From Colwellia sp. TT2012 (GTDB taxonomy: Bacteria > Pseudomonadota > Gammaproteobacteria > Enterobacterales > Alteromonadaceae), in NCBI RefSeq assembly GCF_001440345.1, contig NZ_LJYX01000019.1, forward strand, positions 62,001 to 126,000: 64,000 nt of DNA. The letters run 5' to 3'. The position numbers and the translations under genes are program-made. Positions 25,750-46,197 of the stretch are shown here, in pieces (the first letter of the stretch is position 1; each line of letters opens with the position of its first letter). The notes under the pieces are model-generated. The model was not told the DNA's origin. It did no database searches and worked only from the letters and a program-made list of their open reading frames with translations.

Positions 25750-25809
25750 TTAACGGCCGAACATACCACCCATGCCGCCACCCATACCACCACCTGGTGG
25801 CATCATGCC
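25750..25809 (-). repeat. Echo of the ffh 3' end (60 bp)
   Basis: This 60-bp stretch is identical to the last 60 bp of ffh at 25856-25915, including the stop codon. The two copies are separated by a 46-bp AT-rich spacer (25810-25855). The copy would encode the same last 19 residues (GMMPPGGGMGGGMGGMFGR), but it has no start of its own. Confidence 0.95.
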
Positions 25810-25855
25810 TTGCCTTATGTTGTACAAGTACATCATTTTTATTTTAAAAATAGAC

Positions 25856-27247
25856 TTAACGGCCGAACATACCACCCATGCCGCCACCCATACCACCACC
25901 TGGTGGCATCATGCCCTGCATGCTGCGCATCATTTTTTTCATGCCGCCTTTGCCTGACATTTTTTTCATCATTTTTTGCATTTGAGTAAATTGCTTAAGT
26001 AATTTATTCACATCTTGAATTTGAGTGCCCGATCCAGCCGCAATACGACGTTTACGTGAACCTTTAATAACATCAGGACGTTCACGCTCGCCAGGTGTCA
26101 TAGAGTTTATAATGGCTTCCATGCGCACGGTTACCTTGTCATCCATTTGATCTTTTATTTTAGCCGACATATTGCCCATGCCTGGAAGTTTATCCATCAT
26201 GCCCATCATGCCGCCCATATTTTTCATTTGCACGAGCTGGTCACGGAAGTCTTCTAAGTTAAAACCCTTACCGCTTTTGACTTTTTTGGCTAATTTCTCG
26301 GCTTGTTTTCTATCAACCTTGTGCTCTATTTCTTCAACCAGCGAGAGCACATCACCCATACCCAAGATACGCGAGGCAATACGATCAGGATGGAAAGGCT
26401 CTAACGCTTCGATTTTTTCACCGACACCCATAAATTTAATAGGTTTACCGGTAATATGGCGAATAGAAAGCGCTGCACCACCACGGGCATCACCATCAGT
26501 TTTGGTTAAGATAATACCCGTTAACGGTAAAGCTTCATTGAAGGCTTTGGCGGTATTCGCCGCATCTTGACCTGTCATGGCATCAACAGTAAAGAGGGTT
26601 TCTATCGGATTAATGGCGGCATGAAGCTGCTGAATCTCGGCCATCATGTCTTTATCTATATGCAAACGACCCGCGGTATCGACAATAAGTACATCGAAAA
26701 AGTTTTTCTTCGCATGATCAACAGCAGCAGTAGCGATATCAATAGGTTTTTGTTTATCATCACTAGGGAAAAAAGCAACATCAATTTCTTTGGCTAAGGT
26801 TTCAAGTTGCTTTATGGCTGCTGGGCGATAGACATCGACACTGACCACCAGTACTTTTTTCTTTTCTCGTTCGGTTAAAAATTTTGCCAACTTAGCAACG
26901 GAGGTTGTTTTACCTGCGCCTTGCAGACCCGCCATTAATATTACGGCTGGTGGCGCCGCTTTTAAGTCAAGCCCTTCATTGACTTCACCCATGGCTGCTT
27001 CAAGTTCTTTTTGTACAATTTTGACAAAAAATTGTCCTGGGGAAAGGCTTTTAGAAACATCCTTACCAACAGCTTGCTCTTTTACTTTAGCAATAAATTC
27101 ACGAATGACGGGCAAAGCGACATCGGCTTCAAGTAATGCCATACGAACTTCGCGTAAGGTATCTTTAATATTGTCTTCGGTTAAACGGCCACGGCCACTA
27201 ATGTTTTTAAGTGTTTTACTTAAGCGATCGGAAAGATTGTCAAACAT
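25856..27247 (-). CDS. ffh: Signal recognition particle protein Ffh (SRP54)
   Basis: About 463 residues from the ATG giving MFDNLSDRLSKTLKN. The N domain is followed by the GTPase with GLQGAGKTTSVAKLA (P-loop), VDTAGRLH and TKTDGDARGGAALS. The C-terminal methionine-rich M domain ends MPPGGGMGGGMGGMFGR. It binds 4.5S RNA and signal peptides of nascent membrane proteins and delivers ribosomes to FtsY. Its extreme 3' end is duplicated downstream. ypjD and a CorC-type gene are divergent, as commonly seen near ffh. Confidence 0.97.
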   Translation of the reverse strand: MFDNLSDRLSKTLKNISGRGRLTEDNIKDTLREVRMALLEADVALPVIREFIAKVKEQAVGKDVSKSLSPGQFFVKIVQKELEAAMGEVNEGLDLKAAPPAVILMAGLQGAGKTTSVAKLAKFLTEREKKKVLVVSVDVYRPAAIKQLETLAKEIDVAFFPSDDKQKPIDIATAAVDHAKKNFFDVLIVDTAGRLHIDKDMMAEIQQLHAAINPIETLFTVDAMTGQDAANTAKAFNEALPLTGIILTKTDGDARGGAALSIRHITGKPIKFMGVGEKIEALEPFHPDRIASRILGMGDVLSLVEEIEHKVDRKQAEKLAKKVKSGKGFNLEDFRDQLVQMKNMGGMMGMMDKLPGMGNMSAKIKDQMDDKVTVRMEAIINSMTPGERERPDVIKGSRKRRIAAGSGTQIQDVNKLLKQFTQMQKMMKKMSGKGGMKKMMRSMQGMMPPGGGMGGGMGGMFGR

Positions 27248-27362
27248 GAAATACTCTAACAGCAAAATATGGGTGAGGTAATGCTGCTATTATACCCAAA
27301 TATTTCTAAGATGCGACAGCAGATAGTCTTGCATGTCATTTAGTGCGGATAAAAATGAAATA

Positions 27363-27678
27363 TATATACCCAAGCGACTTCAATATGCTCGTTTGAGGAC
27401 ACCTGAGCGACTCATGATCAAGGCGCATATTTTATTCATGGTTGTTCAGGAGAATATGCTCCTGCATTCTCTATTAAGCTGCATCCATGCAGCGTCCTTA
27501 ATGACATACGCAACGATGAACATGATTTGCTCAGATGCCCCCGTAGGGCTGGTTTAGAAACGCTTTATTCATCGTTATTGATTTCGATAATAGAATAACT
27601 ATGCTCTTCAATCAATGCCTTGCCTAAAGGCGTTTCTCATTCCAGCTCAATCCTGCATTTTGAGGTGGCTTGGGTATA
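27363..27678. mobile_element. MITE-like element, family A, full copy
   Basis: About 316 bp bounded by imperfect terminal inverted repeats (ATATACCCAAGCGACTTCAA at the left; complement of ATATACCCAAGCCACCTCAA at the right). The interior matches, in inverted orientation, the element at 53720-53988 (shared GGCAAGGCATTGATTGAAGA and the AACCAGCCCTACGGGG segment). It has no transposase and fills most of the ffh-ypjD gap. Confidence 0.8.
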
Positions 27679-27850
27679 TGACTTGACTGAACCCACGGAT
27701 TATCTTTTTAGTAATTAAGCCACTGATAAAATAACCCTTAGTTTTCTTTAATTTAAGTCAATACTTTATACGAATCACATGGCGCAGAAGATTATATCTG
27801 ATAGAATCAATTTTTTAATGGATATGTTCAGCCGTTTTAGGGGTTAGTTA

Positions 27851-28648
27851 GTGGATTTTTTGGTTATAGGTTCAAGTTTAGCTTTTTTGCTTTATATACT
27901 TGCGACGTTAGCAATCGTCACACGATTATTTCACCCTAAAGGACCGAATCTCACCTTAGTATTAAGTTTAGCTACCGCGGCTATATCAATACATGCTTTT
28001 AATGATGGCTTATTATTTTTCTCCCAGGACAGTATCAACTTTAATTTACCCAATGTAATTTCCTTAGTCAGCTTAATTATCACTGTGGTGGTTACCTTGG
28101 TAGCGCTGCGCTTTAAAGTCAATTTATTGCTACCCGTGGTCTATGGCTTTACCGGTTTATGGCAGTTAGTCATACTTTTCCTTCCGCCTATTGAATCCAT
28201 TCCTTTGGTGGTAGAAAAAGTCATTTTATTAAGCCATATCAGTTTTGCCTTAATTGCTTATTGTATTCTCATCATTGCTACTTTATATGCGTTCCAAGTA
28301 ACCTATATTAACTTAAAGCTCAAAAGAAAAAACTTAACCGCTGTGGCTCATTTACCACCACTAATGCAAGTAGAGAAGCAACTATTTAGTATTTTGACCT
28401 TGGGCACAATATTTCTTTTTATAAGTCAAGTTATTGGTTTTCTTTTCCTCGATGACTTTTTTGCGAAAAAAAACGCTCATAAAACAGTACTATCATTACT
28501 AGCCTTTGCTACATACGGCCTTATTCTATGGGGACACTTTCAAAAAGGTTGGCGTGGTCACCGCGTATTAGTGTTAATGATCAGTGCAAGTGGGTTACTG
28601 ACCTTGGCTTACTTTGGCAGTCGTTTAGTGAAAGAATTCATTTTATAA
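27851..28648 (+). CDS. ypjD: Inner membrane protein YpjD (CcsA-like cytochrome c assembly family)
   Basis: 265 residues with eight or so hydrophobic segments and a GTG start. HISFALIAYCILIIATLYAFQ and WGHFQKGWRGHR resemble the conserved membrane histidines and HRV region of the CcsA/YpjD family. The proteins are related to haem-handling cytochrome c assembly factors, but YpjD itself is of uncertain function. It lies between ffh (divergent) and the CorC-type gene, a typical arrangement. Confidence 0.85.
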   Translation: MDFLVIGSSLAFLLYILATLAIVTRLFHPKGPNLTLVLSLATAAISIHAFNDGLLFFSQDSINFNLPNVISLVSLIITVVVTLVALRFKVNLLLPVVYGFTGLWQLVILFLPPIESIPLVVEKVILLSHISFALIAYCILIIATLYAFQVTYINLKLKRKNLTAVAHLPPLMQVEKQLFSILTLGTIFLFISQVIGFLFLDDFFAKKNAHKTVLSLLAFATYGLILWGHFQKGWRGHRVLVLMISASGLLTLAYFGSRLVKEFIL

Positions 28649-28760
28649 ATAGCGACTATTTATCCCTACCCTTGTCGCCATGACATTGCTGGTATAAGCT
28701 AGCAGTATTCGCTAATCATTTTAGTTTTTAACTTTTACTTTAATAGAGGAAATTCCCTTT

Positions 28761-30047
28761 TTGGACAGTATATCCACCCAGATGCTCTTTACCATTCTTG
28801 GCATCTTAATATTTCTTTCTGCCTATTTTTCAGGTTCAGAAACCGGCATGATGTCGTTAAATAGATATCGTTTACGCCACCTCGAAAAACAAAAACACAA
28901 AGGTGCTATGCGAGTCAGTAAATTACTTGCTCGTCCAGACCGCCTTATTGGTTTAATTCTCATTGGTAATAACCTGGTTAACATCTCAGCCTCGGCTATT
29001 GCAACCATAATAGGTTTACGCCTGTTTGGTGACATGGGAATTTTGATTGCCACCATAGTATTAACCCTAGTAATCCTTATTTTTGCTGAAGTCACCCCGA
29101 AAACACTCGCGGCGCTATACCCGGAAAAAGTCGCCTTCCCTAGCTCGATAATTTTAACCTTCTTACTGAAATTACTTTTCCCGCTCGTGGTAGTGGTAAA
29201 TTGGATAACCAATAGTCTTTTGATGCTTTTAGGGATTAATGCCGAACAAAGAGAGCAACATAGCCTCAGTAGTGAGGAGTTAAAAACGGTGGTAAATGAA
29301 TCTGGCGCGTTACTACATCCGCGTGACCAAGATATGTTAGTCAGCATTTTAGACTTAGACAAAGTTGTCGTGGAAGATATCATGATCCCACGCAGTGAAT
29401 TGGTGGGTATAGATGTTAACGATGATTGGAAAAAAATACAAAAGCAACTTACTCAAGGAAACCATACTCGAGTATTACTTTATCGCGATAACATAGATGA
29501 TGTGGTCGGTTATATACATGCCCGAGATGCGTTAAAGCTTTTATCAAAAAATCAATTTACTAAGGCGACATTACTGAGAGCGGTACGTGAATTATATTTT
29601 ATTCCCGAAGGCACACCATTAAATATTCAACTATTAAAGTTTCAACATGCTAAAGAGCGTTTGGGTTTAGTGGTTGATGAATATGGCGACATCCAAGGTT
29701 TAGTCACTTTAGAAGATATTCTTGAAGAAATTGTCGGTGACTTTACTACAACCATGACACCAACAACCAGTGAAGAAGTTAACTTGCAGCCTGATGGCAG
29801 CTATTTAGTCGATGGTAGCGCGAGTATTCGAGATATTAATAAAGAGATGTCATGGAAATTGCCCACAGATGGCCCTAAAACCCTTAATGGCTTGATTCTC
29901 GAATACTTAGAAGAGATTCCACAGAGTAATATCAGTTTACGCATCTCTGGCTACCCTGTAGAGATCATTGATGTTGCAGACAATAAAATAAAAACCGTTC
30001 GAGTAATGCCTGAACATTATATTGATGAATACCCTGAAGATGAATAA
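28761..30047 (+). CDS. CorC/HlyC-family (CNNM) membrane protein with CBS domains
   Basis: 428 residues starting at a TTG with AGAGGA ten bases upstream. An N-terminal CNNM/DUF21 membrane domain (FFSGSETGMMSLNRYRLRHLEKQ, several helices to about residue 170) is followed by a CBS pair (VEDIMIPRSELVGID, then RLGLVVDEYGDIQGLVTLEDILEEI) and a CorC_HlyC C-terminal domain. The arrangement matches E. coli YfjD. These proteins are linked to Mg2+/Co2+ handling. It follows ypjD on the same strand. Confidence 0.92.
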   Translation: MDSISTQMLFTILGILIFLSAYFSGSETGMMSLNRYRLRHLEKQKHKGAMRVSKLLARPDRLIGLILIGNNLVNISASAIATIIGLRLFGDMGILIATIVLTLVILIFAEVTPKTLAALYPEKVAFPSSIILTFLLKLLFPLVVVVNWITNSLLMLLGINAEQREQHSLSSEELKTVVNESGALLHPRDQDMLVSILDLDKVVVEDIMIPRSELVGIDVNDDWKKIQKQLTQGNHTRVLLYRDNIDDVVGYIHARDALKLLSKNQFTKATLLRAVRELYFIPEGTPLNIQLLKFQHAKERLGLVVDEYGDIQGLVTLEDILEEIVGDFTTTMTPTTSEEVNLQPDGSYLVDGSASIRDINKEMSWKLPTDGPKTLNGLILEYLEEIPQSNISLRISGYPVEIIDVADNKIKTVRVMPEHYIDEYPEDE

Positions 30048-30073
30048 TTAAACAGGAAAAAGTTAATCACAAA

Positions 30074-30136
30074 GTTATCCACAGAATAAGATTTTCGAAT
30101 AACCTTATTCATCTTTCCACAATTTCTGTGGATAAC
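30074..30136. other. Inverted pair of DnaA boxes in a nested palindrome
   Basis: GTTATCCACAGAA (30074-30086) and its exact complement TTCTGTGGATAAC (30124-30136) form a 13-bp inverted repeat. Each arm contains a perfect DnaA box, TTATCCACA. Inside it, GAATAAG (30085-30091) pairs with CTTATTC (30104-30110). There is no T-run, so it is not a standard terminator. The remaining bases to 30379 show no gene. Confidence 0.75.
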
Positions 30137-30379
30137 AATAGCCAACCCTATCGGTAGCAGCATTTTGTTATTTCAACAAATATTTAGTAATAAAGCAGCC
30201 TTTATTTTCTGTTTATTTAATGAAAACACTAGCTATTGCTGTAGCTATTATCACAGCTAGGCTTGCTGGTTTTATATTGTAAAAACTAAATTGACAAGCT
30301 TTATTTTAGAGTAACTATTATCATTTAGACAAAGTTACTGGTTAAATACGATCATAATGACTTTCATATAATGGCTGGA

Positions 30380-31000
30380 TTAACCAAAGAATAATCGCCA
30401 CAACCAACCATGATCTAGGTCTTTTTCACAAGCCTTTAATTGACTACTGTAACGTCTAGCTCGGTTATCCACTTTACGCGCGACTTTCACTAACCAAGGT
30501 TTTTTCTTATAACTTTTATGTTTAAAGCCCCCCCAACCCTCGTGATAATTTAAGTACTGACTATATGCGTCCCATTTAGAGACCCTATTCACCTTTTGGG
30601 TTTTAAAAATAAACCAGCCCATGAAATCAATTGCGTCATCAAAATCATCTCTATCAGCTCCTGAGTTACCTGTTTCACGCATATAGTCTTTCCAGGTCAT
30701 CGTTTTAGCCTGCGAATACCCATAGGCAGTACTTACCCTACCCCATGGAATAAAACCTAACAAATAGTCTCTTGGTGGCAAAGCATCGTGACGAAATGAG
30801 CTTTCTTGATACATCATACTCATAGGAACATGAATAGGTACGCCCCAACGATCACGGGTATCTTTAGCCGCAAAATACCAATCGCGATGTTCACGAAATA
30901 TTTCACATATATTCTCAGGATTTTTTGGTGGTGGGGTTGCACAACTTGCGAGTAATAAAACACTTGCGGCGATAACTAAGCTCGTTTTACATGAAGGCAT
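30380..31000 (-). CDS. Transglycosylase-SLT-like lipoprotein
   Basis: 206 residues from the ATG at 31000; an in-frame TTG at 31006 is possible but less likely. The lipobox (VLLLASCAT) predicts membrane anchoring. The core VPMSMMYQESSFRHDA has the catalytic-type glutamate of lytic transglycosylase SLT domains, followed by AYGYSQAK and SQYLNYHEGWGG. It is shorter than most lytic transglycosylases, with only the catalytic region. A peptidoglycan-cleaving role is inferred from the motif. Confidence 0.8.
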   Translation of the reverse strand: MPSCKTSLVIAASVLLLASCATPPPKNPENICEIFREHRDWYFAAKDTRDRWGVPIHVPMSMMYQESSFRHDALPPRDYLLGFIPWGRVSTAYGYSQAKTMTWKDYMRETGNSGADRDDFDDAIDFMGWFIFKTQKVNRVSKWDAYSQYLNYHEGWGGFKHKSYKKKPWLVKVARKVDNRARRYSSQLKACEKDLDHGWLWRLFFG

Positions 31001-31160
31001 ATACAAATAACAATTATGAAAACATACCGTTCACTCTACCACTACACACCAAAGCAATGGCAGTTATTGCGAGTAAATTTATTAGCTAAATATTAATTTA
31101 TACAATAATTTTAAATCAATATAAATAATTTGAACTAAACTATAAAACAGCACTCTTACT

Positions 31161-31231
31161 TAACAGTTATGTTATTCCCTTAGTGTTTCATGTTTTATGC
31201 GCCCTCTAGTTTTAGTTGGGCGTTTTTTTTT
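31161..31231 (+). ncRNA. Candidate small RNA, unit 0
   Basis: First unit of the array. The 5' hairpin is partly degraded (TAAC-AGTTAT-GTTA), but the 3' end is the best terminator of the set: GCGCCC, a 13-base loop, GGGCGT and a run of T. It carries a 15-bp shorter terminator loop than the other units. The promoter is not identified. Confidence 0.4.
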
Positions 31232-31248
31232 GATGAGAATTTACAGCT

Positions 31249-31341
31249 GGAATAACAGCTATGTTATTCCGCCTCTTATTAGAGACTTTTCATGTTTTAC
31301 GCGTCCTCCTATCTAGAATAAGTAGTTGGGCGTTTTTTTTT
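31249..31341 (+). ncRNA. Candidate small RNA, unit 1
   Basis: Begins with the perfect hairpin GGAATAAC/GTTATTCC (31249-31270) and ends in GCGTCC...GGGCG plus nine T. Identical to unit 3. The predicted RNA is about 90 nt. Confidence 0.45.
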
Positions 31342-31358
31342 GATTAAAATTAAGAGAT

Positions 31359-31451
31359 AGAATAACAGCTATGTTATTCCGCCACTTATTAGAGAAGCTT
31401 CATGTTTTACGCGTCCTCCTATCTAGAATAAGTAGTTGGGCGTTTTTTTTT
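31359..31451 (+). ncRNA. Candidate small RNA, unit 2
   Basis: Same architecture as unit 1 with substitutions upstream of the hairpin, one terminal base change in the hairpin (AGAATAAC) and changes after it (CCAC for CCTC, GAAGC for GACTT). The terminator half is unchanged. Confidence 0.45.
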
Positions 31452-31468
31452 GATGAGAATTTACAGCT

Positions 31469-31559
31469 GGAATAACAGCTATGTTATTCCGCCTCTTATT
31501 AGAGACTTTTCATGTTTTACGCGTCCTCCTATCTAGAATAAGTAGTTGGGCGTTTTTTT
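31469..31559 (+). ncRNA. Candidate small RNA, unit 3
   Basis: Identical to unit 1 except for a T-run shortened to seven. It is followed at 31577-31620 by a degenerate fifth hairpin (GAATAAC...GTTATGC) that lacks its terminator. Confidence 0.45.
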
Positions 31560-31871
31560 GTCTGAAATTCGACAAGGAGAATAACAGCTATGTTATGCCA
31601 GCTTTTATTAGTGAGGTTCCATGTTTAAAGTTTTATCAGCGAACTATTTAGCCAGTACTGAGGCATAGCTTTATCTATTAGATCAGCAAAGATAGGCATC
31701 TACTAAGGGATGAAATTGATGCCCTGGAGTGAGAATTTAATAATAAAGGCATTAACGGATAATTTATTTTGAAATAAAATGAACTTATCAACTTTTATGA
31801 CGTCTTACTAATTGAAACATTCTTCCCTGGATTGCTTTCATTTGATCTAAGTATTGTTTACTTAGATAACC

Positions 31872-31898
31872 AGCGCGTCGCCTTGACGCGCTTTTTTT
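31872..31898 (+). terminator. Strong plus-strand terminator before gshA
   Basis: Perfect GCGCGTC/GACGCGC stem with a GCCTT loop and seven T. It faces the 3' end of gshA and no plus-strand gene precedes it. It must end a transcript coming from the array or an unrecognised RNA in 31620-31870, where a CTAAGTA/TACTTAG hairpin also lies. Confidence 0.88.
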
Positions 31899-31955
31899 AT
31901 CTCTATTATTCTACTTTAGCTAGCAACAATTCACGTAATATATTGCCTTTTAATT

Positions 31956-33560
31956 TTAGGCGAAATAATCAGTTAAAAAATCATCAAAATTTAGTTTATC
32001 TGCTGCTTCTATATCAGCTTGCGCTTGATGAGACGCAGGTACACTTTCGTCAAAAAATGCTTGGCTATAAAATTGGTAATCACGTACTTTAGCCTGTTGT
32101 CGATATTTAGTTGCTTTATCTAAAGCATACTGAGATAAAGACTGCTCTTGAATAGCCGTTAATAGCTGTGCCGAAGGCGTTAAATTCGGATCATTAATTT
32201 TAGCTTGCTCACGAACAATGGCTTCACTGTATTTACTGGTTTGGTATGCTTTATCCAACAACTCGGCCACAAGTTTCAGCTGCTCAAATAATTCATTACC
32301 CCAAGTGGTAACCGATTTTAGGACAACTTCCCCTTGGTTATTGCTATCAGACAATAATAACTCTGGGTCTCTACCGCGCAATACCACCTCATTCATATTC
32401 GATTCATGTACTTTTTGCGCCGTACAATCAAGCTCTTTATTATCAACAAAAGCACAAAAAGTAATAAAAATATCTAAGAAATAAACTTGCTCAAGGCTAA
32501 TACCAGTATCAGAAAAAGGATTAACATCGAGTGCTCTAACCTCAATATACTCGACACCACGTTCTCCTAACGCAACGGATGGCTTTTCTCCAGATTTAGC
32601 GACACGTTTGGGACGAATAGGCGCATACAGCTCATTTTCAATTTGTAGTACATTGTCGTTTAACTGCTGATATTCACCATTAACCTTAACACCAATGCCG
32701 GCAAAGTCTTTCGACTTTAATTTTATCGCTTGTTGCACGCCATCAACATAATCAGCCAAATTGTTATAACAAATTTTCAAGGTCGATTGCTCAGCACTGG
32801 TATAACCTAAATCACTCATGCGTAATGAGGTGGCGTACTCAAGGTAAAGCGTACCAAATGGTGTCTTTTTAAAAGGTAACTGAGACTTTTTACCTTGTAA
32901 AAATGAGCTACAAATTGCCGGAGAACTACCGTATAAATAAGGGATCAACCAACAATAACGTTTGTAATTTCTTAAGATGGAAAAGTAACGATCGGAAATA
33001 AAGTCACCTAGCGGTAATAACTTATCACCTGATGATTTTATTTGTGAAGTCTGATGTAGCTTATGTTGTACCTGCCAAAAGTCTTGTGAAAATGAGAAAT
33101 TAAAATGAATTCCTGAGATGACTTGCATCATAGAGCCATAGCGATTTTTCAGACCTTGACGATAAACAGTCTTCATTTTACCAATGTTAGAGCTACCATA
33201 CTGAGCTAGTGGTATTTTTTCAGCATCGTTAACAAAACATGGCATGCTCATTGGCCACAGCAATTCACCGTCAATATTATCAAAGGTGTACTTTTGAATA
33301 TCTTGTAGTTGAGCTATCGCTTGCTCGGGGGAGTGACTTACTGGGGTAATAAATTCAAGTAACGTCTCTGAATAGTCTGTGGTTATCTGTCCATGAGTTA
33401 GCGCTGAACCAAGTTGATGATAATGACCATGCTCTGATAACTTTCCTTCGGGCAATATTCGCAATGCCTCTCGCTCTATACCGCGACCAATACCTGCAAC
33501 AGCAGCCAAATTTTCACTTTGGCTAAAAGCGCCAATATAATCAGTTAATGAGAGTGTCAA
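31956..33560 (-). CDS. gshA: Glutamate--cysteine ligase
   Basis: 534 residues, in the range of the E. coli-type GshA (518). GIGRGIEREALRI at the start is the ATP-grasp-like glutamate-binding region, and GIHFNFSFSQDFW, SLRMSDLGY and VEYIEVRALDVNPF match the family. It forms gamma-glutamylcysteine from glutamate and cysteine, the first step of glutathione synthesis. It is separated from the upstream M16 peptidase gene by a terminator, so it is probably monocistronic. Confidence 0.95.
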   Translation of the reverse strand: MTLSLTDYIGAFSQSENLAAVAGIGRGIEREALRILPEGKLSEHGHYHQLGSALTHGQITTDYSETLLEFITPVSHSPEQAIAQLQDIQKYTFDNIDGELLWPMSMPCFVNDAEKIPLAQYGSSNIGKMKTVYRQGLKNRYGSMMQVISGIHFNFSFSQDFWQVQHKLHQTSQIKSSGDKLLPLGDFISDRYFSILRNYKRYCWLIPYLYGSSPAICSSFLQGKKSQLPFKKTPFGTLYLEYATSLRMSDLGYTSAEQSTLKICYNNLADYVDGVQQAIKLKSKDFAGIGVKVNGEYQQLNDNVLQIENELYAPIRPKRVAKSGEKPSVALGERGVEYIEVRALDVNPFSDTGISLEQVYFLDIFITFCAFVDNKELDCTAQKVHESNMNEVVLRGRDPELLLSDSNNQGEVVLKSVTTWGNELFEQLKLVAELLDKAYQTSKYSEAIVREQAKINDPNLTPSAQLLTAIQEQSLSQYALDKATKYRQQAKVRDYQFYSQAFFDESVPASHQAQADIEAADKLNFDDFLTDYFA

Positions 33561-33631
33561 AATAATTCCTATCTATACCAGTCAGCCACATAGGTTAACC
33601 GTTAGCTTAATTTAGCATTTAGCGAGTAAGA

Positions 33632-37445: not shown

Positions 37446-37478
37446 CTTATCTTGAATATAAACTAATCACGCAATTTT

Positions 37479-37525
37479 CTATAACGAGTGCCAAAAAACT
37501 AGGCCAATAGCGGTCGGACAAACGA
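37479..37525 (-). repeat. Echo of the NSS transporter 3' end (47 bp)
   Basis: Matches the transporter's own last 47 bp (37577-37623) at 44 positions. All three differences are synonymous third-codon changes (ACA/ACC, GCC/GCT, TCT/TCG), so the peptide CPTAIGLVFWHSL and stop are unchanged. The spacer between the copies is 51 bp (37526-37576). Confidence 0.93.
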
Positions 37526-37576
37526 GCTCATCGTAAGTAACAAAAGCACCAAGGCTATGGCCGTATTGATAACTAG

Positions 37577-38923
37577 CTATAAAGAGTGCCAAAAAACTAG
37601 GCCAATGGCTGTCGGACAAACGAACTTGGTATACCAAGGCCAGATTTTCCAGAAGAAACTGTGCTCGACATTTTCATTACCTTGCTTGATTTCCGCTAAA
37701 ATTTCATTTCTATACCAAATCCAACCAACAAAAATACAACATAACATGGCAATAATAGGTTGACCGTATACCGTAGAAACATTGATCACCAAACCAAATA
37801 ACAAGTCAAAATTTACCACTATTAATGCGCTTAACAGTAAAATACTGATACCTATTACTGTAGTGGCTTTTTTACGTTCAATATTATGACGTTCAACCAC
37901 AAAAGATACTGGCCCCTCTAACATAGAAATTGATGACGTTAATGCCGCTATCGACATTAAAACAAAAAAGGCAAAAGCAACAAATACACCAATATCACCC
38001 ATACCAGTAAATAAGCTAGGTAATACATCAAAGACTAAGTTAGGACCCGATATTAAACTGCCATCTTCGGCAAAAATTGCCACCCCTTGCGCCTGTGCAA
38101 CATACATAGCAGGGATAATTAATAAGCCTGCTAAAAAGGCAATAGAGACATCAATTAAAGTGACTTGGGCAGCAAGTGTCACTAAGTTCTCTTTTTTAGC
38201 AATATAAGAGCCGTAAATAATCATCACGCTAGTACCCAGTGACAAAGAGAAAAATGCTTGCCCTAAGGCACTAATTAAAAGATCAGGTTCCAACACTCGA
38301 GAAAAATCAGGATTTAAATAGGCATTAAAGCCCTCGCGAGCACCATCTAAGGTAAAGACATAGATGATCAATAAAATAAGCAAACCGATTAACATTGGCA
38401 TCAAACGTTTTGACCACTTTTCAATGCCCTGCTCAACACCACGGCGAATTATCCCTATGGTTAACATCATAAATAATGCGCTGAATATTAAGTCTCGAGG
38501 CACTGATTGGACGGTTAACCAACTTGAGACTTGCTGAAAACCAAGTAATTGGCTGATGGGTTCAATTGCATAGGCCATCATCCAGCCAGCTAAAACACCA
38601 TAAAAACTTAAAATAAGTGCCGCGCAAATAATGCCGCCAAAACCGATAACAAAGGCAAAACGTTTTTGCCATAAATTACGTGACATTTTTTGCATACTGG
38701 TTACAGCATTAGCTTGACCATAACGACCAATTAACAACTCAGCCATAAACGCGGGATAAGCTAAACAAAAGGCTAACACTAAGTACACTAAAACAAAGGC
38801 AGCACCACCATTACTCGCTGTTTGCGTGGGAAAACCCCAAATATTACCTAAGCCAACAGCAGAGCCTGCCGCTGCCATAATAAAACCAAATCGCGAACTA
38901 AAGCCGCCTCTTGCAACACTCAT
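37577..38923 (-). CDS. Sodium-dependent transporter (NSS/SNF family)
   Basis: 448 residues with about eleven helices. The N-terminus FSSRFGFIMAAAGSAVGLGNIWGFP is the NSS family signature (sodium-site helix 1). SLSLGTSVMIIYGSY and ALTSSISMLEG mark helices 6 and 8. It probably imports an amino acid or similar with Na+. Substrate unknown. Its 3' end is followed by the echo repeat at 37479-37525. Confidence 0.93.
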   Translation of the reverse strand: MSVARGGFSSRFGFIMAAAGSAVGLGNIWGFPTQTASNGGAAFVLVYLVLAFCLAYPAFMAELLIGRYGQANAVTSMQKMSRNLWQKRFAFVIGFGGIICAALILSFYGVLAGWMMAYAIEPISQLLGFQQVSSWLTVQSVPRDLIFSALFMMLTIGIIRRGVEQGIEKWSKRLMPMLIGLLILLIIYVFTLDGAREGFNAYLNPDFSRVLEPDLLISALGQAFFSLSLGTSVMIIYGSYIAKKENLVTLAAQVTLIDVSIAFLAGLLIIPAMYVAQAQGVAIFAEDGSLISGPNLVFDVLPSLFTGMGDIGVFVAFAFFVLMSIAALTSSISMLEGPVSFVVERHNIERKKATTVIGISILLLSALIVVNFDLLFGLVINVSTVYGQPIIAMLCCIFVGWIWYRNEILAEIKQGNENVEHSFFWKIWPWYTKFVCPTAIGLVFWHSL

Positions 38924-39147
38924 TTACTTCCCCGAATTTTTTGCGAAATTATTTTTATAATTATTCATGAAGGTCTGTGCCTTATGATGAGAGCACTAAT
39001 TTACGCAATAACGCACAAGAAAAATAGAGGACAAGGCATTTATTATTTATTTAATAAACACCGAAATGTTAAATAGACTGTAAACATAGTGATACTGATA
39101 AATTAAAAAAATAACGCTGGTATAGCCGCGACAAAAATTATCTAATT

Positions 39148-39305
39148 ATACCCGTTTCATTAAGTTTGTGATCTTGTTGTGCATAGGAAAAATAAATCAG
39201 GGCAAGGCGCTCGATTGAGCAATAGCGAGCTATTGAGATTGAGAGCAACGTAGACATGGGGTATTTTACCCCCACAAGTGAGCAATCATTTAATGAAATT
39301 GGTAT
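39148..39305. mobile_element. MITE-like element, family B, full copy
   Basis: 158 bp with imperfect terminal inverted repeats (ATACCCGTTTCATTAAG... and ...TTTAATGAAATTGGTAT). The interior includes ATAAATCAGGGCAAGGCGCT. It is the same length as, and highly similar to, 53564-53721. It sits in the intergenic region 38924-39424, which otherwise shows no gene. Confidence 0.82.
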
Positions 39306-39424
39306 TAACAGCTTAAACAGCTACATTTTTCATCCCGCTCACCTAAGATTGCTGGCATGATAAAAATAAACCAGCAAGAGCTGCCTCTTTACTGGTTTAT
39401 AATTAATATTCAATCAATTGTAAA

Positions 39425-42400
39425 TTACAAGCGGAAAATATTATCGGCACTATCTCTATCCACTAAGCGAATAAAAGGATCTACGCCGGCAAATTTAGGC
39501 TTACCTTTAACTCGTACTGTTATTTTGTTGGTACCTGTTTTGATCTGATGTTTAGCAAGATATAAAACAAAATCTTGTGCAGACAAGTCTTCCGGATTTG
39601 CGCTAAATAAACCAATATCAATTTCATCACTAAAATCAACTTCAGTTTCTTTACCTTGACCATCGGCACGTTTAAGTGCCGCTTCAATGGTTAAGGTCAC
39701 ATCAAAAGTATCTTCAATATCAGCCACTGCCACAACTTGTACATCGGTAGTTTTCAAATCATACAAGCTAATATGTTCAAACAGGTTGCTAATAAAACGC
39801 TTTTCTTGCTCATTAGTATCTTGGTTAAGGTAAGCCATTAAATCTAAGGTGGTTGGATACGGCGTACTTTGATACTTAAATTCATTGAGGAAGTTTTGTA
39901 AGGCGCTATTTAAACGCTGTTCACCTAATCTGTCTTTAAGTGCCATCATCACGATAGAGCCCTTGTTATAATGAATATACTGCTGATTCTCACTACGGTA
40001 TAAAGGCATCTCTTCTAACGCTTCAGTACTGCGCCCGCTAAGATATTTATCTAATTCATACTTTAAAAATTTACGCATGTTATTCTGGCCGTATTTTTTC
40101 TCCATCACCATTAATGCGCCATATTGCGACAAGGTTTCAGACAAAATAGCACTGCCTTGCACATTAGCCGCACCCACTTGATGTGCCCACCATTGATGGG
40201 CGACTTCATGGGCGGTAACATAATAAGCTATATCAATATTGTTCGGATCGCGTAAGTCACTAATAAAGCCAATCTTTTCAGAAAAAGGCACGGTATTAGC
40301 AAAACTTTGCGCAAAACTGCGATAACCTGGGTATTCGATTATACGCATTTGTTTGTGCTGATAAGGACCAAAATTCTCACTAAAATAATCAATCGAATCA
40401 CGTACTGATTCCATCATACGGTCAACGTTCATAGCGTGATTCTTATGATAATAAACCTCAATATCAATGCCTTTATAGTGCTCTTTTTTCGACTTTAATT
40501 TTGCTGACATAAAAGAATAAAAATTAACCATAGGCGCGTCCATTTTATAATGGAAAGTACGGCGACCATCTTGCAATGTTTCGCTTTGCAAGTAACCTGG
40601 CGCGATAGCAAACTGATCGGCTACCGTTGAAATGGTCGCTTCAAAGTCAATAAAACCAATGCCGTTGCCAAAGAAACTTTCATTATAAAACCGTTTATCT
40701 TCGAGTTTATTGGCGCGTTGCAACGGCGCTAAATCATGCTGTCGACGTTTATGACGATCATTTAACTGCCAACCTTGTTGATAACCAAAGTTTGGAAATA
40801 AAGCGAAGTTGTCAATAAAAGTACCATTGTCCAGTAAAGTATAATCACCATTAGTTTCACTAAATCCCTGATGGACACGGGTAACGCTTAACTTGCCCTG
40901 ACGTATTTCACCTGGCAATAGCGGCTCAGTAAATGTAAACCATGCGGTATCAAACTCTTCATCTAATTCACCTAAAACCCCACCATCAATCTCCACCGAC
41001 CATTGTTTACTATGGTTAGGTTTTGCTACTAAAAATTTAGTGATTGCTTGGTCGCTGGTATTGGTTAAGCTTAATTCGGCTACCGCTTCAATACGGCGTT
41101 CACTTGGATAAATATCAACTTTCGCATGTACTTTAGTAATGGTGGGAATAGCTGCATTGAGCTCACTAACATACTTATGCTCATATGCCGCACGGTTATC
41201 ATCTATATCATCGCTAATAACAAAGTCATTAAGTACACGGGTATTGTAGTGAATAACACTGCCTGCACCGATAAAAATAATTAAGCCTAGCGTAATAATG
41301 GCTTTGCCTGACGTTGATAAGTGATACGAAATATTTTTAATACGCGTTTTTAATGATTGCGCCGGACCTCGATGCCATAAGGCATAAGTTAAACAGGCGA
41401 AGACTAAGGTTAAACCGCTCCAATAAAACATATACCAATGATGACTGGTTAAAAAGTGTCCGTAACCATTAATATCCGAATATAATACTGGCGGCGCACC
41501 GCCAAATTGAAACATATTATGACTAAATCCTAAACTGCTTAGCGTTATTGAACTGATTATAAATAATACAAATAACAACATACCAATATATTTATTTGGA
41601 CTAATCACTTGTAAGAAAAAGGCCAAAACGGCGGTAAAAATAAAAGGCACTAAATTGATGTAACCTAAGCGCATAATATATTGCGATAACTCTATGTGTT
41701 GATGGCCTTGTAATAGCTGATTAACAACTGTAACCGAAATACCGCAGACATAAAGCAAGGCTAAGACCAAACTAATGGCTATGATTTTCGATAGCCAAAA
41801 AGTAATATTATTTACCGGCATTGAATCAACAATATCACCCATGCCTGAATCTCGTTCACGCCAAACAATTTCAGCACTGTAATAAGTCAGTACTATCATC
41901 ATTAACATACCTGTCGAGCCAGCGATAACTTCAACCATGTTTTGTGTTAATGGCCAGTTAGGCGTGCCATAGCTGCCTAAAGAGCTCATAAGTATTGAGA
42001 TAAGCATAACCATAGTAATTAAGGCAAGTACGAAAAAAGGTGCGCTGAATACAACTTGTTTGATTTCAAATAAAATACGTAAACGTAAATGTGCTGCGGT
42101 TTGAATACCCGAGCTTTTAGCGGTGATATTATTGTTTAATAACGCCGGGATTTTTTCATCTTGCATTAGCGCTTGCTGCGCTGCTTTTTTCTGTGCCTTT
42201 TTACTGAGTTTTTTTACTTTCGCGCTAGATAAACGTACCTTAGACCTAAAACCACCAAAGACTGCCAGTATAAATACCGAAATAGCCAACCACAGTAAAC
42301 GGTTTTCTAATAAGGTGCCGCTTAACTCAATGGTACTATTATTCTTATCAAACAAGGTCCAATAACGCGTCATTTCACTAAAGGTGTTGAATGCAAAAGG

Positions 42401-43036
42401 ATCAAGCAATGCGGCTATGGTACGGTATTCTGGGTCACTCAAAAGCTGCCCTGACACAGAATAAAGAACAAATAGGCCTACAGCCGATAGGTAAACCGCC
42501 ATCATAGAGCGAAACTTAAGGGCTACCGCATAAAAAAAGCACGACAAGACCAATAAGGTCGGTAAAGACAGATAAAAATACGCACTAAAATAGTAACTTA
42601 GATTGGTAGCACCTAAACGCTCAGGATCAACCCAACCGACTAAACCGCCCAATAAAGTTCCAATTAAAATACCTAAGGGTACAAAAGCAAAAACCGTGGC
42701 AACGACGGCAAAAGAGCCTAAAAATCGCCCTAATTGATAGCTCAGCGGATTTATCGGTTTAGAATACAGTAACTCTGACATCTTGCTAGTGTCATTACGG
42801 GTTGCGGTGCTGGCAACAAAATTTACCACCAAAAACATGGCAAACAAGCCCATGATCAATAAGGTTTGCGCAATAGCAAAAGGCCCATTATATAAAACAT
42901 TACCACCGCCACCCAATTGAATATCGTCACTAATGGTGGCAAAAAAGGTCAGCAAGAAAAAAATTAAACTGGTGACATAAAAAGAGGGCTGTCGAGTAAA
43001 ATAGCGCCATTCAAAGGCAAACATTTGCATTAACAT
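39425..43036 (-). CDS. ABC permease fused to an M1-family aminopeptidase
   Basis: 1203 residues. The N-terminal 550-600 residues have about twelve membrane helices in two ABC-2-like permease halves. The C-terminal part is an M1 metallopeptidase with HEVAHQWW near residue 940 and the third zinc ligand in ILSETLSQY. The ATPase partner is encoded just upstream (43067-43987), 30 bp away. Such permease-peptidase fusions are known in gammaproteobacteria, but their substrate is unclear. The peptidase should face the periplasm if the helix count is even. Confidence 0.9.
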   Translation of the reverse strand: MLMQMFAFEWRYFTRQPSFYVTSLIFFLLTFFATISDDIQLGGGGNVLYNGPFAIAQTLLIMGLFAMFLVVNFVASTATRNDTSKMSELLYSKPINPLSYQLGRFLGSFAVVATVFAFVPLGILIGTLLGGLVGWVDPERLGATNLSYYFSAYFYLSLPTLLVLSCFFYAVALKFRSMMAVYLSAVGLFVLYSVSGQLLSDPEYRTIAALLDPFAFNTFSEMTRYWTLFDKNNSTIELSGTLLENRLLWLAISVFILAVFGGFRSKVRLSSAKVKKLSKKAQKKAAQQALMQDEKIPALLNNNITAKSSGIQTAAHLRLRILFEIKQVVFSAPFFVLALITMVMLISILMSSLGSYGTPNWPLTQNMVEVIAGSTGMLMMIVLTYYSAEIVWRERDSGMGDIVDSMPVNNITFWLSKIIAISLVLALLYVCGISVTVVNQLLQGHQHIELSQYIMRLGYINLVPFIFTAVLAFFLQVISPNKYIGMLLFVLFIISSITLSSLGFSHNMFQFGGAPPVLYSDINGYGHFLTSHHWYMFYWSGLTLVFACLTYALWHRGPAQSLKTRIKNISYHLSTSGKAIITLGLIIFIGAGSVIHYNTRVLNDFVISDDIDDNRAAYEHKYVSELNAAIPTITKVHAKVDIYPSERRIEAVAELSLTNTSDQAITKFLVAKPNHSKQWSVEIDGGVLGELDEEFDTAWFTFTEPLLPGEIRQGKLSVTRVHQGFSETNGDYTLLDNGTFIDNFALFPNFGYQQGWQLNDRHKRRQHDLAPLQRANKLEDKRFYNESFFGNGIGFIDFEATISTVADQFAIAPGYLQSETLQDGRRTFHYKMDAPMVNFYSFMSAKLKSKKEHYKGIDIEVYYHKNHAMNVDRMMESVRDSIDYFSENFGPYQHKQMRIIEYPGYRSFAQSFANTVPFSEKIGFISDLRDPNNIDIAYYVTAHEVAHQWWAHQVGAANVQGSAILSETLSQYGALMVMEKKYGQNNMRKFLKYELDKYLSGRSTEALEEMPLYRSENQQYIHYNKGSIVMMALKDRLGEQRLNSALQNFLNEFKYQSTPYPTTLDLMAYLNQDTNEQEKRFISNLFEHISLYDLKTTDVQVVAVADIEDTFDVTLTIEAALKRADGQGKETEVDFSDEIDIGLFSANPEDLSAQDFVLYLAKHQIKTGTNKITVRVKGKPKFAGVDPFIRLVDRDSADNIFRL

Positions 43037-43066
43037 AAGAAATTCCTTGTCATTGGTTTGCTTGAA

Positions 43067-43987
43067 TTAAGCCACTTTTTTTTGTGCTGAAGTAGACTGA
43101 GTTGCAGTGGATTGATCTGAAGCACGATATTCATTTAACGTAGAAAAATAGACATCTTCTAAATTCACTGGCGCGGCTTCAAAACCAAAGGGAGCACTTT
43201 CGGCTATGACATGCACAATAGTTTGTCCGGCAAATAAACGTTTCGAGATCACGTTAAATTCTTGCTCAATAACGTTAAGCTCTGATTGAGCAATCGCTTT
43301 ACGCCAGATTTGACCCTTGAGTTTATTGGTTAATTCGATGGGATTACCTTGTAGTACAATTTTCCCTGAGGCAAGTACCGCCATATTAGGGCAAAGTTCG
43401 GTAACATCCTCAACAATATGTGTTGATAATATAATGGCTTTTTCTTCACCTAAGGCGACTAATAAATTATGAAAACGATTACGCTCTTCTGGATCTAACC
43501 CCGCAGTAGGTTCATCAACAATTAATAAGTCAGGATCGCCAAGTAAGGCTTGGGCAATACCAAAACGCTGACGCATGCCACCAGAGAAACCACTAACGGC
43601 ATTTTTTCTATGCTGGTATAAATTCGTTTGTGCTAATAAACCTTCCACCGCTTCTTTACGCTCTGCTTTATTTTTCAAACCTTTTAAAATAGCAAGATGG
43701 TCAAGTAATTCATAAGCACTGATACGAGGATAAACACCAAAATCTTGTGGCAAGTAACCCAAACGTTGTCGTAGTGCTTGTGGGTCTTTTAAAACATCAA
43801 TACCATCAAAGGTAATACTGCCACTATCAGCATCTTGCAAAGTGGCAATGGTACGCATTAATGACGATTTACCAGCACCATTAGGGCCTAATAAACCAAA
43901 CATGCCTTTCGGGATTTCCAGCGTAATATTATCCATCGCTTTAACTCCATTATCGTAAGTCTTGGATAAATTTTTTATTGTTAACAT
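43067..43987 (-). CDS. ABC transporter ATP-binding protein
   Basis: 306 residues with Walker A (GPNGAGKSS), signature SGGMRQR, Walker B with D-loop (LLIVDEPTAGLD) and an H-loop (STHIVED). A C-terminal extension of about 90 residues follows, as in CcmA/NatA-type ATPases. It pairs with the permease-peptidase fusion downstream in a two-gene operon. Confidence 0.95.
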   Translation of the reverse strand: MLTIKNLSKTYDNGVKAMDNITLEIPKGMFGLLGPNGAGKSSLMRTIATLQDADSGSITFDGIDVLKDPQALRQRLGYLPQDFGVYPRISAYELLDHLAILKGLKNKAERKEAVEGLLAQTNLYQHRKNAVSGFSGGMRQRFGIAQALLGDPDLLIVDEPTAGLDPEERNRFHNLLVALGEEKAIILSTHIVEDVTELCPNMAVLASGKIVLQGNPIELTNKLKGQIWRKAIAQSELNVIEQEFNVISKRLFAGQTIVHVIAESAPFGFEAAPVNLEDVYFSTLNEYRASDQSTATQSTSAQKKVA

Positions 43988-44165
43988 TATTATTCCTTGC
44001 GTTAATTTTTATTTATTATTTTTTTGCCAATTTCGTTGTAGATAACTCAACAAAAAATTTGTAGGTTTAGCCTACTGCATTGTTAATATTATGTAAAATA
44101 TAACTTGACCACTCACAGTAAGAGAATGTAATAAAACCGGCCTTACACCCTTTTTAAAAGAGCAA

Positions 44166-44212
44166 CAAAAAAGCCCGTAGTTATTAGCAATTTATGCTAA
44201 TAACTACGGGCT
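44166..44212 (-). terminator. Terminator of the prfB-lysS operon
   Basis: Long perfect stem AGCCCGTAGTTATTAGCA and its complement with a short loop, followed on the minus strand by TTTTTT. It lies 52 bp after the lysS stop. Confidence 0.93.
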
Positions 44213-44263
44213 TCATCATGCTTATTTGACTACTTTCAAATAACGTTTTTATTCAAAACGTGT

Positions 44264-45841
44264 TTATTTCTCTGCTTCAGGACGCATATGTGGGAATAAA
44301 ATCACGTCTTTAATGGTTGGTGAATCAGTGAACAACATCACTAAACGATCAATACCAATGCCTTCACCGGCCGTTGGTGGTAAACCGTATTCTAAGGCGG
44401 TGATGTAATCCGCATCATAATGCATAGCTTCATCATCGCCGGCATCTTTTTCTGCTACTTGTTTCTTAAAGCGAGCGGCTTGATCTTCAGCATCGTTAAG
44501 CTCTGAGAAGCCATTGGCTATTTCACGACCACCAACAAAGAATTCAAATCGGTCGGTAATAAATGAGTTGTTATCATTACGACGTGCTAAAGGTGAAACT
44601 TCCCACGGGTATTCGGTGATAAAGGTAGGTTGATCCAATAAGTGCTCTGCTACTTCTTCAAAAATTTCACAGATATACTTGCCTGGTCCCCATAACTTAG
44701 CAGCCTCACCTTCTTTAACACCCACAGCTTTTGCCATGGCTTTAATCGCGGCAAAGTTATTTTCCGGGTCACGTAATGCGGCTTCATCAAGGTGCTCAGC
44801 TGCGCGATGCTCTTTACCGTATTTTAAAATGGCGTCGACCATAGATAAACGCACAAATGGCTGGCCAAAATCGTAAAATTTCTCTTCGATCACTTCACCA
44901 TCAGAATTTTTAACGGTATTACGAATCATCGTTGTACCCAGTACATCTTGGGCAACAGTACGTAACATTTCTTCGGTAAGGTTCATCATGTCATTGAAAT
45001 CAGCATAAGCTTGGTAGAATTCAATCATGGTAAATTCTGGATTATGACGGGTTGAAATACCTTCATTACGGAAACTACGGTTAATTTCAAAGACACGTTC
45101 GAAACCGCCGACCACTAAACGTTTTAAGTTAAGCTCTGGCGCAATACGTAAGTACATATCAAGATCAAAAGTATTATGATGGGTCATAAAAGGTTTAGCC
45201 GTTGCACCACCTGGTATGATTTGCAGCATAGGGGTTTCTACTTCCATAAAATCACGTTCAACTAAAAACTGTCGAATTCCTGAAATAATTTTTGAACGCA
45301 TTTTAAAGGTATTACGGGTCTCTTCATTGATGATCAAATCAATATAACGCTGACGATATTTAGTTTCTTGATCTGACAAACCATGAAACTTTTCAGGTAA
45401 TGGACGTAGTGATTTAGTCAACAATGAGTATTCATTCATATTCACGTAAAGATCGCCTTTACCTGACTTATGCAAAATACCTCTAATACCAATAATGTCA
45501 CCAATATCTAACGAGCCCCATTTAGCTCTTATTTCTTTCTGTACGGTTTTTTCAGCATAACCTTGAATACGGCCTGACCCGTCTTGTATCACTAAAAAGG
45601 GTCCACGTTTTGCCATAACACGGCCAGCAATAGCATAAGTAAGCTGTAGTTCTTCAAGTTCTTCTTTGGTTTTTTCACCATGTTCAGCTTGAATATCAGC
45701 GGCTAAATGTTCACGATTAAAATCGTTAGGAAAACCATTCGCGGAACAATTAGAGCGAATCTTCTCAAGCTTTACACGACGCTCAGCAATCAGTTTATTT
45801 TCATCTTGTGCTACAGGTGTACTTTTAGCTTTATCTGTCAT
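44264..45841 (-). CDS. lysS: Lysine--tRNA ligase (class II)
   Basis: 525 residues. An OB-fold anticodon-binding domain ([21 protein letters not shown]) is followed by class II motif 2 ([20 protein letters not shown]) and motif 3 ([11 protein letters not shown]). It lies downstream of prfB in the same order as in E. coli. Between them is the 108-bp tandem repeat at 45919-46197. Confidence 0.97.
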
Positions 45842-45918
45842 GTTAGTTTCTCAACGTTATCTTTAATTTGATCAATTTAATTAATTATTTGTGGTTAGCT
45901 TTTATTTTTAGCTTAATG

Positions 45919-46197
45919 CTACAATCCAGACTTTAAGCTGGCTGCTAAAAACTTATCAATATCACCGTCTAGCACGGCTTGTTTGGTTCATTCTGCTTCT
46001 GTTTTCAATATCTGGGAAAACCGTTGCTACAAACCAGACTTTAAGCTGGCTTCTAAAAACTTATCAATATCACCGTCTAGCACGGCTTGTTTGGTTCATT
46101 CTGCTTCTGTTTTCAATATCCGGGAAAACCGTTGCTACAAACCAGACTTTAAGCTGGCTTCTAAAAACTTATCAATATCACCGTCTAGCACGGCTTG
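45919..46197 (-). repeat. Tandem 108-bp repeat derived from the prfB 3' end
   Basis: Three copies of the terminal 63 bp of prfB (46135-46197, 46027-46089, 45919-45981), separated by two 45-bp spacers (45982-46026 and 46090-46134) that differ at one base. The distal copy has two substitutions in the coding part: one synonymous (GGT to GGA), one changing a residue (E to A). The prfB stop is in the first copy, so the other two are in the prfB-lysS intergenic mRNA. Confidence 0.95.

Follow-up and report, generated by a model that had tools for sequence, protein, structure and literature searches.

Downstream copies of gene 3' ends in Colwellia as probable remains of tandem partial duplications

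Results

Three genes in the window, the 64,000-bp stretch of Colwellia sp. TT2012 DNA analyzed here, have their own ends duplicated downstream: ffh, an NSS-type transporter gene, and prfB, all on the minus strand, each with a copy (hereafter, echo) ending at the stop codon. Each echo probably represents the remains of a tandem duplication of roughly the last 100 bp of its gene, in some cases with additional downstream bases, in which the spacer has decayed and the tail has been kept.

The last 64 bp of ffh (25856-27265, named by NCBIfam TIGR00959), including the stop (25856..25919), were followed by a 42-bp spacer (25814..25855) and an echo identical at 63/64 positions (25750..25813), giving a period of 106 bp. 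Downstream of this echo lies the ffh terminator region, which is also present in several relatives. In the NSS transporter gene (37577-38923, Pfam PF00209), a 50-bp tail (37577..37626), a 48-bp spacer (37529..37576), and a 50-bp echo with 92% identity (37479..37528) were found at a period of 98 bp. The 63-bp tail of prfB (gene, 46135-47190, NCBIfam TIGR00020; tail including the stop, 46135..46197) was present three times at a period of 108 bp, and the spacer was repeated as well. This A-B-A-B-A layout consists of the tail, a 45-bp spacer (46090..46134), an echo identical to the tail across 63 bp (46027..46089), a near-identical second spacer (45982..46026), and a second echo with two differences from the tail (45919..45981), after which the lysS leader follows. 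The first-pass annotation had described echoes that include the stop and recur at a period of 98–108 bp, as was observed here; its echo lengths of 47–63 bp and spacers of 45, 46, and 51 bp were slightly off (measured, 50–64 bp and 42, 48, and 45 bp). A fourth array in the window (31213-31626; period 110, 3.8 copies) is intergenic. A blastn comparison of the prfB end with plasmid records was uninformative: 17 records contained partial prfB-like matches, each covering less than 80% of the query.

The last 150 bp of each gene was scanned against its own 450 bp downstream with a score cut-off of 18 or more. This score was reached by 9/693 genes (62, 42, and 65 for ffh, NSS, and prfB, respectively) and by 0/693 when downstream regions were exchanged among genes, which confirms that the three-gene architecture is real. 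Near-stop echoes were found in 3/45 genes of the window and 6/1010 genes of the sampled genome. Three of the nine rows were excluded from the genome count: a row at distance 274 that ends 49 bp short of the stop, a row scoring weakly at 22, and a row in a probably spurious ORF. No probability is claimed for the clustering of the three genes, since it was this cluster within 20 kb that drew attention. An outgroup sample (G026) does not serve as a clean negative, since 3/358 of its genes had 3'-end rows; one of these is a 170-bp array, and the other two lie in a tRNA array where the ORFs are probably spurious.

The genome scan, which had been proposed as a check, placed echoes well above the swap control but about level with a 5'-end control. 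With the window included, 3' and 5' ends scored equally at the cut-off of 18 or more (9 vs. 9 of 693 genes), and 3' ends led at higher cut-offs (7 vs. 5 at 24, 7 vs. 3 at 30, and 5 vs. 3 at 40), a lead to which the three window genes behind the original observation contribute. In a larger sample of 965 genes excluding the window, where a single repeat may be counted at both gene ends, the counts were 5 vs. 5 at a score of at least 30 and 6 vs. 11 at a score of at least 19; thus, no preference for gene 3' ends was found outside the window. Because the query is cut off at the stop in the 3'-end scans, an echo end at 0 carries no meaning there, and true echo ends were taken from unclipped scans. 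In these, three other echoes of the window genome extended 9, about 51–53, and 103 bp beyond the stop, and an exact stop boundary is therefore not a general rule.

In relatives of the window genome, whose sister is Colwellia marinimaniae (G035), periods at the same genes varied: 87, 106, 184, 195, 225, and 237 bp for ffh in six genomes, 64–311 bp for NSS, and 106–120 bp for prfB. Among non-genic repeats in a sampled 1.2 Mb, the period was 95–112 bp in 6/53 and 95–150 bp in 20/53. Three periods inside 98–108 bp are mildly unusual, yet other periods occur at the same genes elsewhere, and the similar sizes, earlier taken as a sign of a common mechanism, do not bear that weight. Copy number also differed: the prfB tail unit occurred three times in G000 and G035 and once or twice elsewhere, and a VOC-fold gene had four copies. 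The prfB echo was absent from 29/39 genomes, and in the echo-free G048 and G015 the stop is directly joined to the sequence found downstream of the echo in G001 and G044. The ffh echo of C. marinimaniae comprises just 21 bp and a further 13 bp of downstream sequence in common, compared with 64 bp at 98% in the window genome. In the count on the tree, genomes without a fetched gene were scored as echo-free (three for ffh and two for NSS); the scan of relatives missed prfB of G003 and NSS of G006 and G039, which were added from separate comparisons. The cases form a decay series, from weakly decayed spacers (prfB of G031 and G016) through well-kept tails (the window) to relics (prfB of G049 and NSS of G039).

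The origin of the prfB spacer was found in relatives in which it is less decayed. In G016 (31/35 identical), G031 (34/35), G003 (37/40), and G001 and G044 (33/34), it duplicates the stretch of gene that immediately precedes the tail, and the spacer of a YlqF-family GTPase gene in the window genome matched the preceding gene segment at 57/74 positions. Each of these matches was reached by 0/500 shuffles, and no other tested gene window scored as high. Seven of 19 tested spacers attained this level (prfB five times, the YlqF-family gene, and ffh of G035); among the other 12, one was borderline and 11, including all three of the window, were too decayed to tell. Spacer-to-gene likeness in the three window genes was not significant (reached by 95, 189, and 117 of 500 shuffles for ffh, prfB, and NSS, respectively), and the best NSS match was that of G006 (6/500). 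As the spacer copies the gene segment that precedes the tail, roughly the final 105 bp of prfB appear to have been duplicated in tandem, and the first part of the duplicate has since drifted. A duplication process as such, one of the two explanations first offered, is thereby borne out, and ffh and NSS may well have the same origin.

The other explanation, tiny elements that integrate at the 3' ends of genes and supply a replacement coding end, would account for the exact stop boundary in three genes, for the clean junction in echo-free relatives, and, with the window included, for the greater frequency of strong echoes at 3' ends (7 vs. 3). The boundary, which all three window cases share, remains in favor of such targeting. 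The gene-derived prfB spacer, the even 3' and 5' counts outside the window, and the 64–311 bp range of periods argue against it, as does the lack of a spacer sequence in common: no dispersed family or motif was found in 1.26 Mb for four spacers (the three window genes and one VOC-fold gene), as the first-pass annotation had noted for the window. AATCCCTTTCGG occurred in a VOC-gene spacer and in pseudo-tRNA copies, but it is rare and not general. Scars of such elements are thus mostly refuted and very improbable as the source of the echoes.

Spacers resembled one another between species. The ffh spacer of the window was homologous to that of C. marinimaniae, the NSS spacer to those of G036, G037, G006, and G050, and the prfB spacer to those of G001, G044, G016, G050, and G031 (0/200 shuffles each), but the prfB spacer did not resemble that of the close relative G036 (114/200). 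It is only through such similar spacers that the three window genes are linked to the gene-derived ones. Spacers copied separately from one gene segment would resemble one another too. Nine of 10 aligned prfB echoes had an insertion of ~10 bases that the genes lack, which would not be expected if descent from the gene were all they shared. This insertion and the likeness of NSS spacers across five genomes speak against independent slippage in each gene and lineage with no common history. The prfB echo of G003 lacks the insertion, and ffh periods vary so widely among lineages that several events are likely at ffh; even so, we regard slippage of this kind as a highly unlikely explanation of the whole.

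Each window echo was nearer to its own gene than to the gene of any other genome: 0 differences in 63 bp for prfB (next genome, 2), 1 in 63 bp for ffh (next, 5), and 4 in 50 bp for NSS (next, 7), although a low difference count alone is weak evidence since the gene tail is conserved genus-wide. The prfB echo of G050 likewise showed 0 differences from its own gene and 2 from the next. The pattern was patchy: prfB echoes of G016 and G031 and NSS echoes of G036, G006, and G050 were nearer to another genome's gene, the prfB echo of G003 had 13 differences from its own gene and was far nearer to another genome's, the first echo of G035 lay closer to the gene of the window genome, and G001/G044 tied with G048. 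In the Colwellia MAG L244, the prfB spacer was 49/51 identical to that of the window, whereas the prfB genes are 75–86% alike per 100 bp, a disparity that suggests transfer by homologous recombination. The L244 echo has a hairpin that is missing from the window copy, as judged by eye.

Selection on the echo as a functional element (a 3' UTR RNA, a regulatory element for the following gene, or a spare coding sequence for the tail) was also weighed. Tail-echo differences in 18 comparisons were 59 synonymous vs. 29 nonsynonymous, against an expectation of 74% nonsynonymous under random change; this count omits prfB of G044, of G035 (third copy), and of G049 (6 synonymous, 12 nonsynonymous), and the VOC fourth copy (4 and 2). 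The stop terminates 21/22 echoes, the ffh echo of G035 and the prfB echo of G001 had RNA folding z values of −4.97 and −2.27, respectively, and compensating changes were seen by eye between the prfB hairpins of G001 and G036. The synonymous excess was rejected as proof of selection, as import of functional ends from other species yields the same pattern. A hairpin function was likewise set aside: the three window echoes folded no better than shuffles (z −1.21, −0.02, and −0.57), and prfB of G036 hardly did (−1.30). Echo-only changes were 14 nonsynonymous vs. 3 synonymous, although polarization favors nonsynonymous calls, and the absence of the prfB echo from most genomes and the plain decay of some echoes (G049) also count against function. 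Selection of this kind is therefore considered improbable.

Discussion

Taking the echoes as decayed tandem duplications, the following history is proposed. The final ~100 bp of a gene, at times together with downstream bases, would be duplicated in tandem, and the duplication would be tolerated because, in the cases read, the gene remains intact as the first copy. The spacer, as the far part of the second copy, would then drift by substitutions, indels, and small hairpin-forming changes until unrecognizable, while the last 50–64 bp would remain gene-like or be restored by recombination between copies. Such recombination may also enlarge arrays, as in prfB and the four-copy VOC-fold gene, and could delete an echo without a scar. 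Spread across species would rely on ordinary homologous recombination in which the tail copies serve as arms, as suggested by homologous spacers in scattered species and by a spacer far more alike between two species than the adjoining gene. The edge at the stop may reflect loss of homology in unconstrained DNA past it. Two observations count against this history: it does not directly account for the exact stop boundary seen in each of the three window genes, and persistence of a deletion-prone layout across the genus is unexpected without selection or re-import.

It is tentatively suggested, at less than even likelihood, that the tail echo makes the spacer a homology-armed cassette, mobile because it is flanked on both sides by sequence matching a conserved gene's 3' end. 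Segments of ~45–70 bp could then be gained, lost, and moved between species without harming the gene; a gene-derived scrap would persist as a scarless, passively mobile passenger, with recombination into the gene keeping the echo coding-like.

The object itself is of a known kind, probably a tandem partial gene duplication, and its dynamics are the interesting part. The echoes offer a natural series for following such a duplication through decay, homogenization, and perhaps change of host, and they warn that a gene end repeated beside its gene need not signal an integrated element. No description of this architecture was found among the literature matches listed, part of the subscription literature being out of reach.

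The A-B-A-B-A layout of prfB is shared by the repeats downstream of Escherichia coli tyrT/tyrV (annotated as the RttR region and known as rtT). In strain MG1655, copies of the 19-bp tRNA-Tyr end lie at +178, +356, and +534, separated by spacers that are nearly identical. This system differs in that it involves tRNA rather than protein genes, a 178-bp period, and a 19-bp tail. The E. coli region also has an annotated small RNA, whereas none is known for the Colwellia echoes, and Rfam and tRNA scans of the window gave no match.

In diversity-generating retroelements, template and variable repeats include an approximately 100-bp copy of a gene 3' end just downstream; the Colwellia echoes, in contrast, lie at housekeeping genes and their changes are not limited to adenines. 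Integrative elements at gene 3' ends leave the gene with a restored coding end and a displaced copy next to it; the Colwellia cases differ in their gene-derived prfB spacer, the lack of a fixed size, and the lack of a 3' preference outside the window. According to Achaz, Rocha and colleagues, bacterial close direct repeats reportedly arise as tandem copies that are later eroded, deleted, or homogenized by recombination. The Colwellia echoes are alike in being short-spaced tandem copies with such a fate; they differ in that the retained part is the coding tail, and the species comparison shows one half of the duplication decaying and the other maintained.

Tail echoes at three genes of the window and elsewhere in the genome

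The genome of Colwellia sp. TT2012 (G000) comprises 4.42 Mb in 223 contigs, the window being positions 62001-126000 of contig C197, and a three-gene tree places C. marinimaniae (G035) as its sister. Profile matches identified ffh (TIGR00959), a sodium:neurotransmitter-symporter (NSS) family transporter (PF00209), and prfB (TIGR00020), the last followed by lysS. The tail-spacer-tail pattern described for these genes in the first-pass annotation was present at all three. The last 64 bp of ffh recur beyond a 42-bp spacer (period 106 bp), the last 50 bp of the NSS gene beyond 48 bp (period 98 bp), and the last 63 bp of prfB beyond 45 bp (period 108 bp); all of these repeats terminate with the stop codon. 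In the prfB array the tail is present three times and the spacer twice, and the third tail copy continues to match for 2 further bases. A fourth array in the window, intergenic and away from gene ends (31213-31626; period 110 bp, 3.8 copies), contains the palindrome GGAATAACATAGCTGTTATTCC and A or T runs; the same-strand gene upstream encodes glutamate-cysteine ligase.

Three further genes carried echoes, all running past the stop codon: a VOC-fold gene (C1:255619-256011) with four tail copies 114-115 bp apart and about 50 bp past the stop common to the copies, a CheR-like gene (C1:562504-563334; period 149 bp, 103 bp past the stop), and a YlqF-family GTPase gene (C103:318441-319373; period 167 bp, 9 bp past the stop). 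A boundary exactly at the stop therefore characterises the three window cases and is not a general rule. By eye, a decayed relic was apparent in the related genome G048 at the place corresponding to the VOC-fold locus (C1:255619-256360). Likewise by eye, tandem tRNA copies about 141 bp apart at C1:440849-441600 give way to two degenerate ones at 184 bp, with inserts in the anticodon half and an intact 3′ half, a half-decay of the same kind as at gene tails.

Frequency at gene ends and gene starts

With their own downstream regions, 9 of 693 genes reached the score cut-off, compared to 0 of 693 with swapped downstream regions. Echoes thus exceeded chance in the scan, but specificity for gene ends was not borne out, as the identical test on gene starts also returned 9 of 693. 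At higher cut-offs the 3′ ends led (7 vs. 5 at 24; 7 vs. 3 at 30), a lead that rests on the three window genes. In a sample comprising the window, 800 kb of contig C1, and 400 kb of C103, hits scoring at least 19 occurred at 9 ends and 12 starts of 1010 genes, and at 6 ends and 11 starts of 965 genes once the window was removed. At scores of at least 30, ends and starts were equal outside the window (5 and 5 of 965), which argues against the earlier proposal that tiny integrative elements target gene 3′ ends.

Merged local repeats numbered 43 in the C1 sample and 19 in that of C103, compared to 9 in 400 kb of the congener G037 and 6 in 400 kb of G026 from another family; the window genome therefore seems repeat-rich, judged from small samples. 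With crude ORF calling, 39 of 66 merged repeats in the window-genome sample touched no called ORF, the VOC-gene array being counted among them. In G037, 1 of 296 genes gave a gene-end hit; G026 gave hits at 3 of 358 genes, of which two lie within a tRNA array.

Distribution and possible exchange among relatives

Echoes of prfB were found in 10 of 39 genus genomes (nine from the scan, with G003 added), a distribution that takes at least seven changes to explain on a three-gene tree from which the last 180 bp of each gene were excluded. Repeats at ffh occurred in 6 of 36 genomes (periods 87 to 237 bp) and at the NSS gene in 7 of 37, including a truncated one (G039) and a different 311-bp repeat (G035). 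Among the best 80 named loci, the scan, which misses the prfB echo of G003, found it in three: C. marinimaniae, a Colwellia MAG, and an Alteromonadaceae MAG with a decayed echo. In the echo-free G048 and G015, the prfB stop runs directly into sequence found after the echo in G001 and G044.

Each window echo was closest to its own gene: the prfB echo differs from it at 0 of 63 bp (2 for the next genome), that of ffh at 1 of 63 (next 5), and that of NSS at 4 of 50 (next 7). The prfB echo of G050 behaved likewise (0 vs. 2). Outside those cases homogenisation was patchy. Over 48 bp of prfB, other genomes' genes were nearer to the echoes of G016 (6 differences), G031 (7), and G003 (13), and the first G035 echo was nearest to the window genome's gene. 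The G036 echo (7) tied between its own gene and that of G035, and those of G001 and G044 (2) tied with each other and G048. The NSS echoes of G036, G006, and G050 were also nearer to foreign genes; that of G050 differs at 4 positions from the genes of G004 and G009 and at 10 from its own, and the sequence beyond it is similar to that in G009 and G044. It looks as though a gene end and its spacer had been inserted ahead of the resident one.

Movement is most clearly suggested by the Colwellia MAG locus (L244), whose prfB spacer is identical to that of the window genome at 49 of 51 positions, while the adjoining prfB is 75-86% identical per 100 bp. By eye, its echo has a hairpin, as in G036, and the window copy has none. 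Strong constraint on the spacer could produce the same identity, but the spacers of G050 and G001 are much further from that of L244 (38/51 and 37/49). Because homogenisation is patchy and strong echoes lead at 3′ ends once the window is counted, integrative elements retain a slight chance, although we consider them very improbable.

Origin of the spacer

Nineteen spacers were aligned to the 90 bp of gene directly before the repeated tail, with 500 dinucleotide-preserving shuffles and gene-body windows as controls. Seven gave scores reached by no shuffle and no tested gene-body window: prfB of G001, G044, G016, G031, and G003, the YlqF-family gene, and ffh of G035, which is included since its recognisable tail is short. 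For the NSS spacer of G006, 6 of 500 shuffles reached the score; likeness was not significant in 11 of 19, including all three window spacers (25 to 189 of 500). The window prfB spacer resembles those of G001, G044, G016, G050, and G031 (each 0/200 letter shuffles) and G003 (4/200), and is unlike those of the close relative G036 (114/200) and G049 (91/200). Likeness to the window NSS spacer extends to those of G036, G037, G006, and G050 (0/200) but not to the shortened G039 spacer (60/200).

Taken alone, such likeness could also arise if one gene segment had been copied separately each time, by independent slippage in each gene and lineage. However, an insertion of about 10 bases relative to the gene is common to 9 of 10 aligned prfB echoes, an indication that most of these go back to a single old event. 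Since G003 is the exception and separate copying fits the spacer likeness, slippage keeps a small share, but is hardly to be expected. The common insertion, together with the gene-derived spacers of relatives, indicates that about 105 bp at the end of prfB were duplicated in tandem. Analogy and partial similarity suggest the same origin at ffh, NSS, and VOC. Tandem duplication of gene ends with a decayed outer part is the probable explanation, slightly weakened by the 3′ lead with the window counted and by the patchy homogenisation.

Selection or neutral decay

Eighteen gene-echo comparisons, which are not independent, gave 59 synonymous and 29 nonsynonymous differences, against a random expectation of 74% nonsynonymous (nominal p = 1e-15). 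Recombination with functional ends would fit this excess, and so would selection. Echo-only changes were 14 nonsynonymous and 3 synonymous under a polarisation biased towards nonsynonymous calls, and fit neutral decay between exchanges. No function is claimed for the echoes. Inverted repeats in decaying echoes downstream of ffh in G035 (folding z -4.97) and of prfB in G001 and G036 look like template-switch (quasi-palindrome) changes.

Comparison with known systems

The echo phenomenon is real, largely explained, and moderately interesting. Close direct repeats that originate as tandem copies form a well-established general class, and the new element here is the comparative picture across genomes. 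In Escherichia coli tyrT/tyrV, as read from the sequence, the final 19 bp of the tRNA recur at +178, +356, and +534 with near-identical spacers, the same layout as the prfB tail-spacer array.
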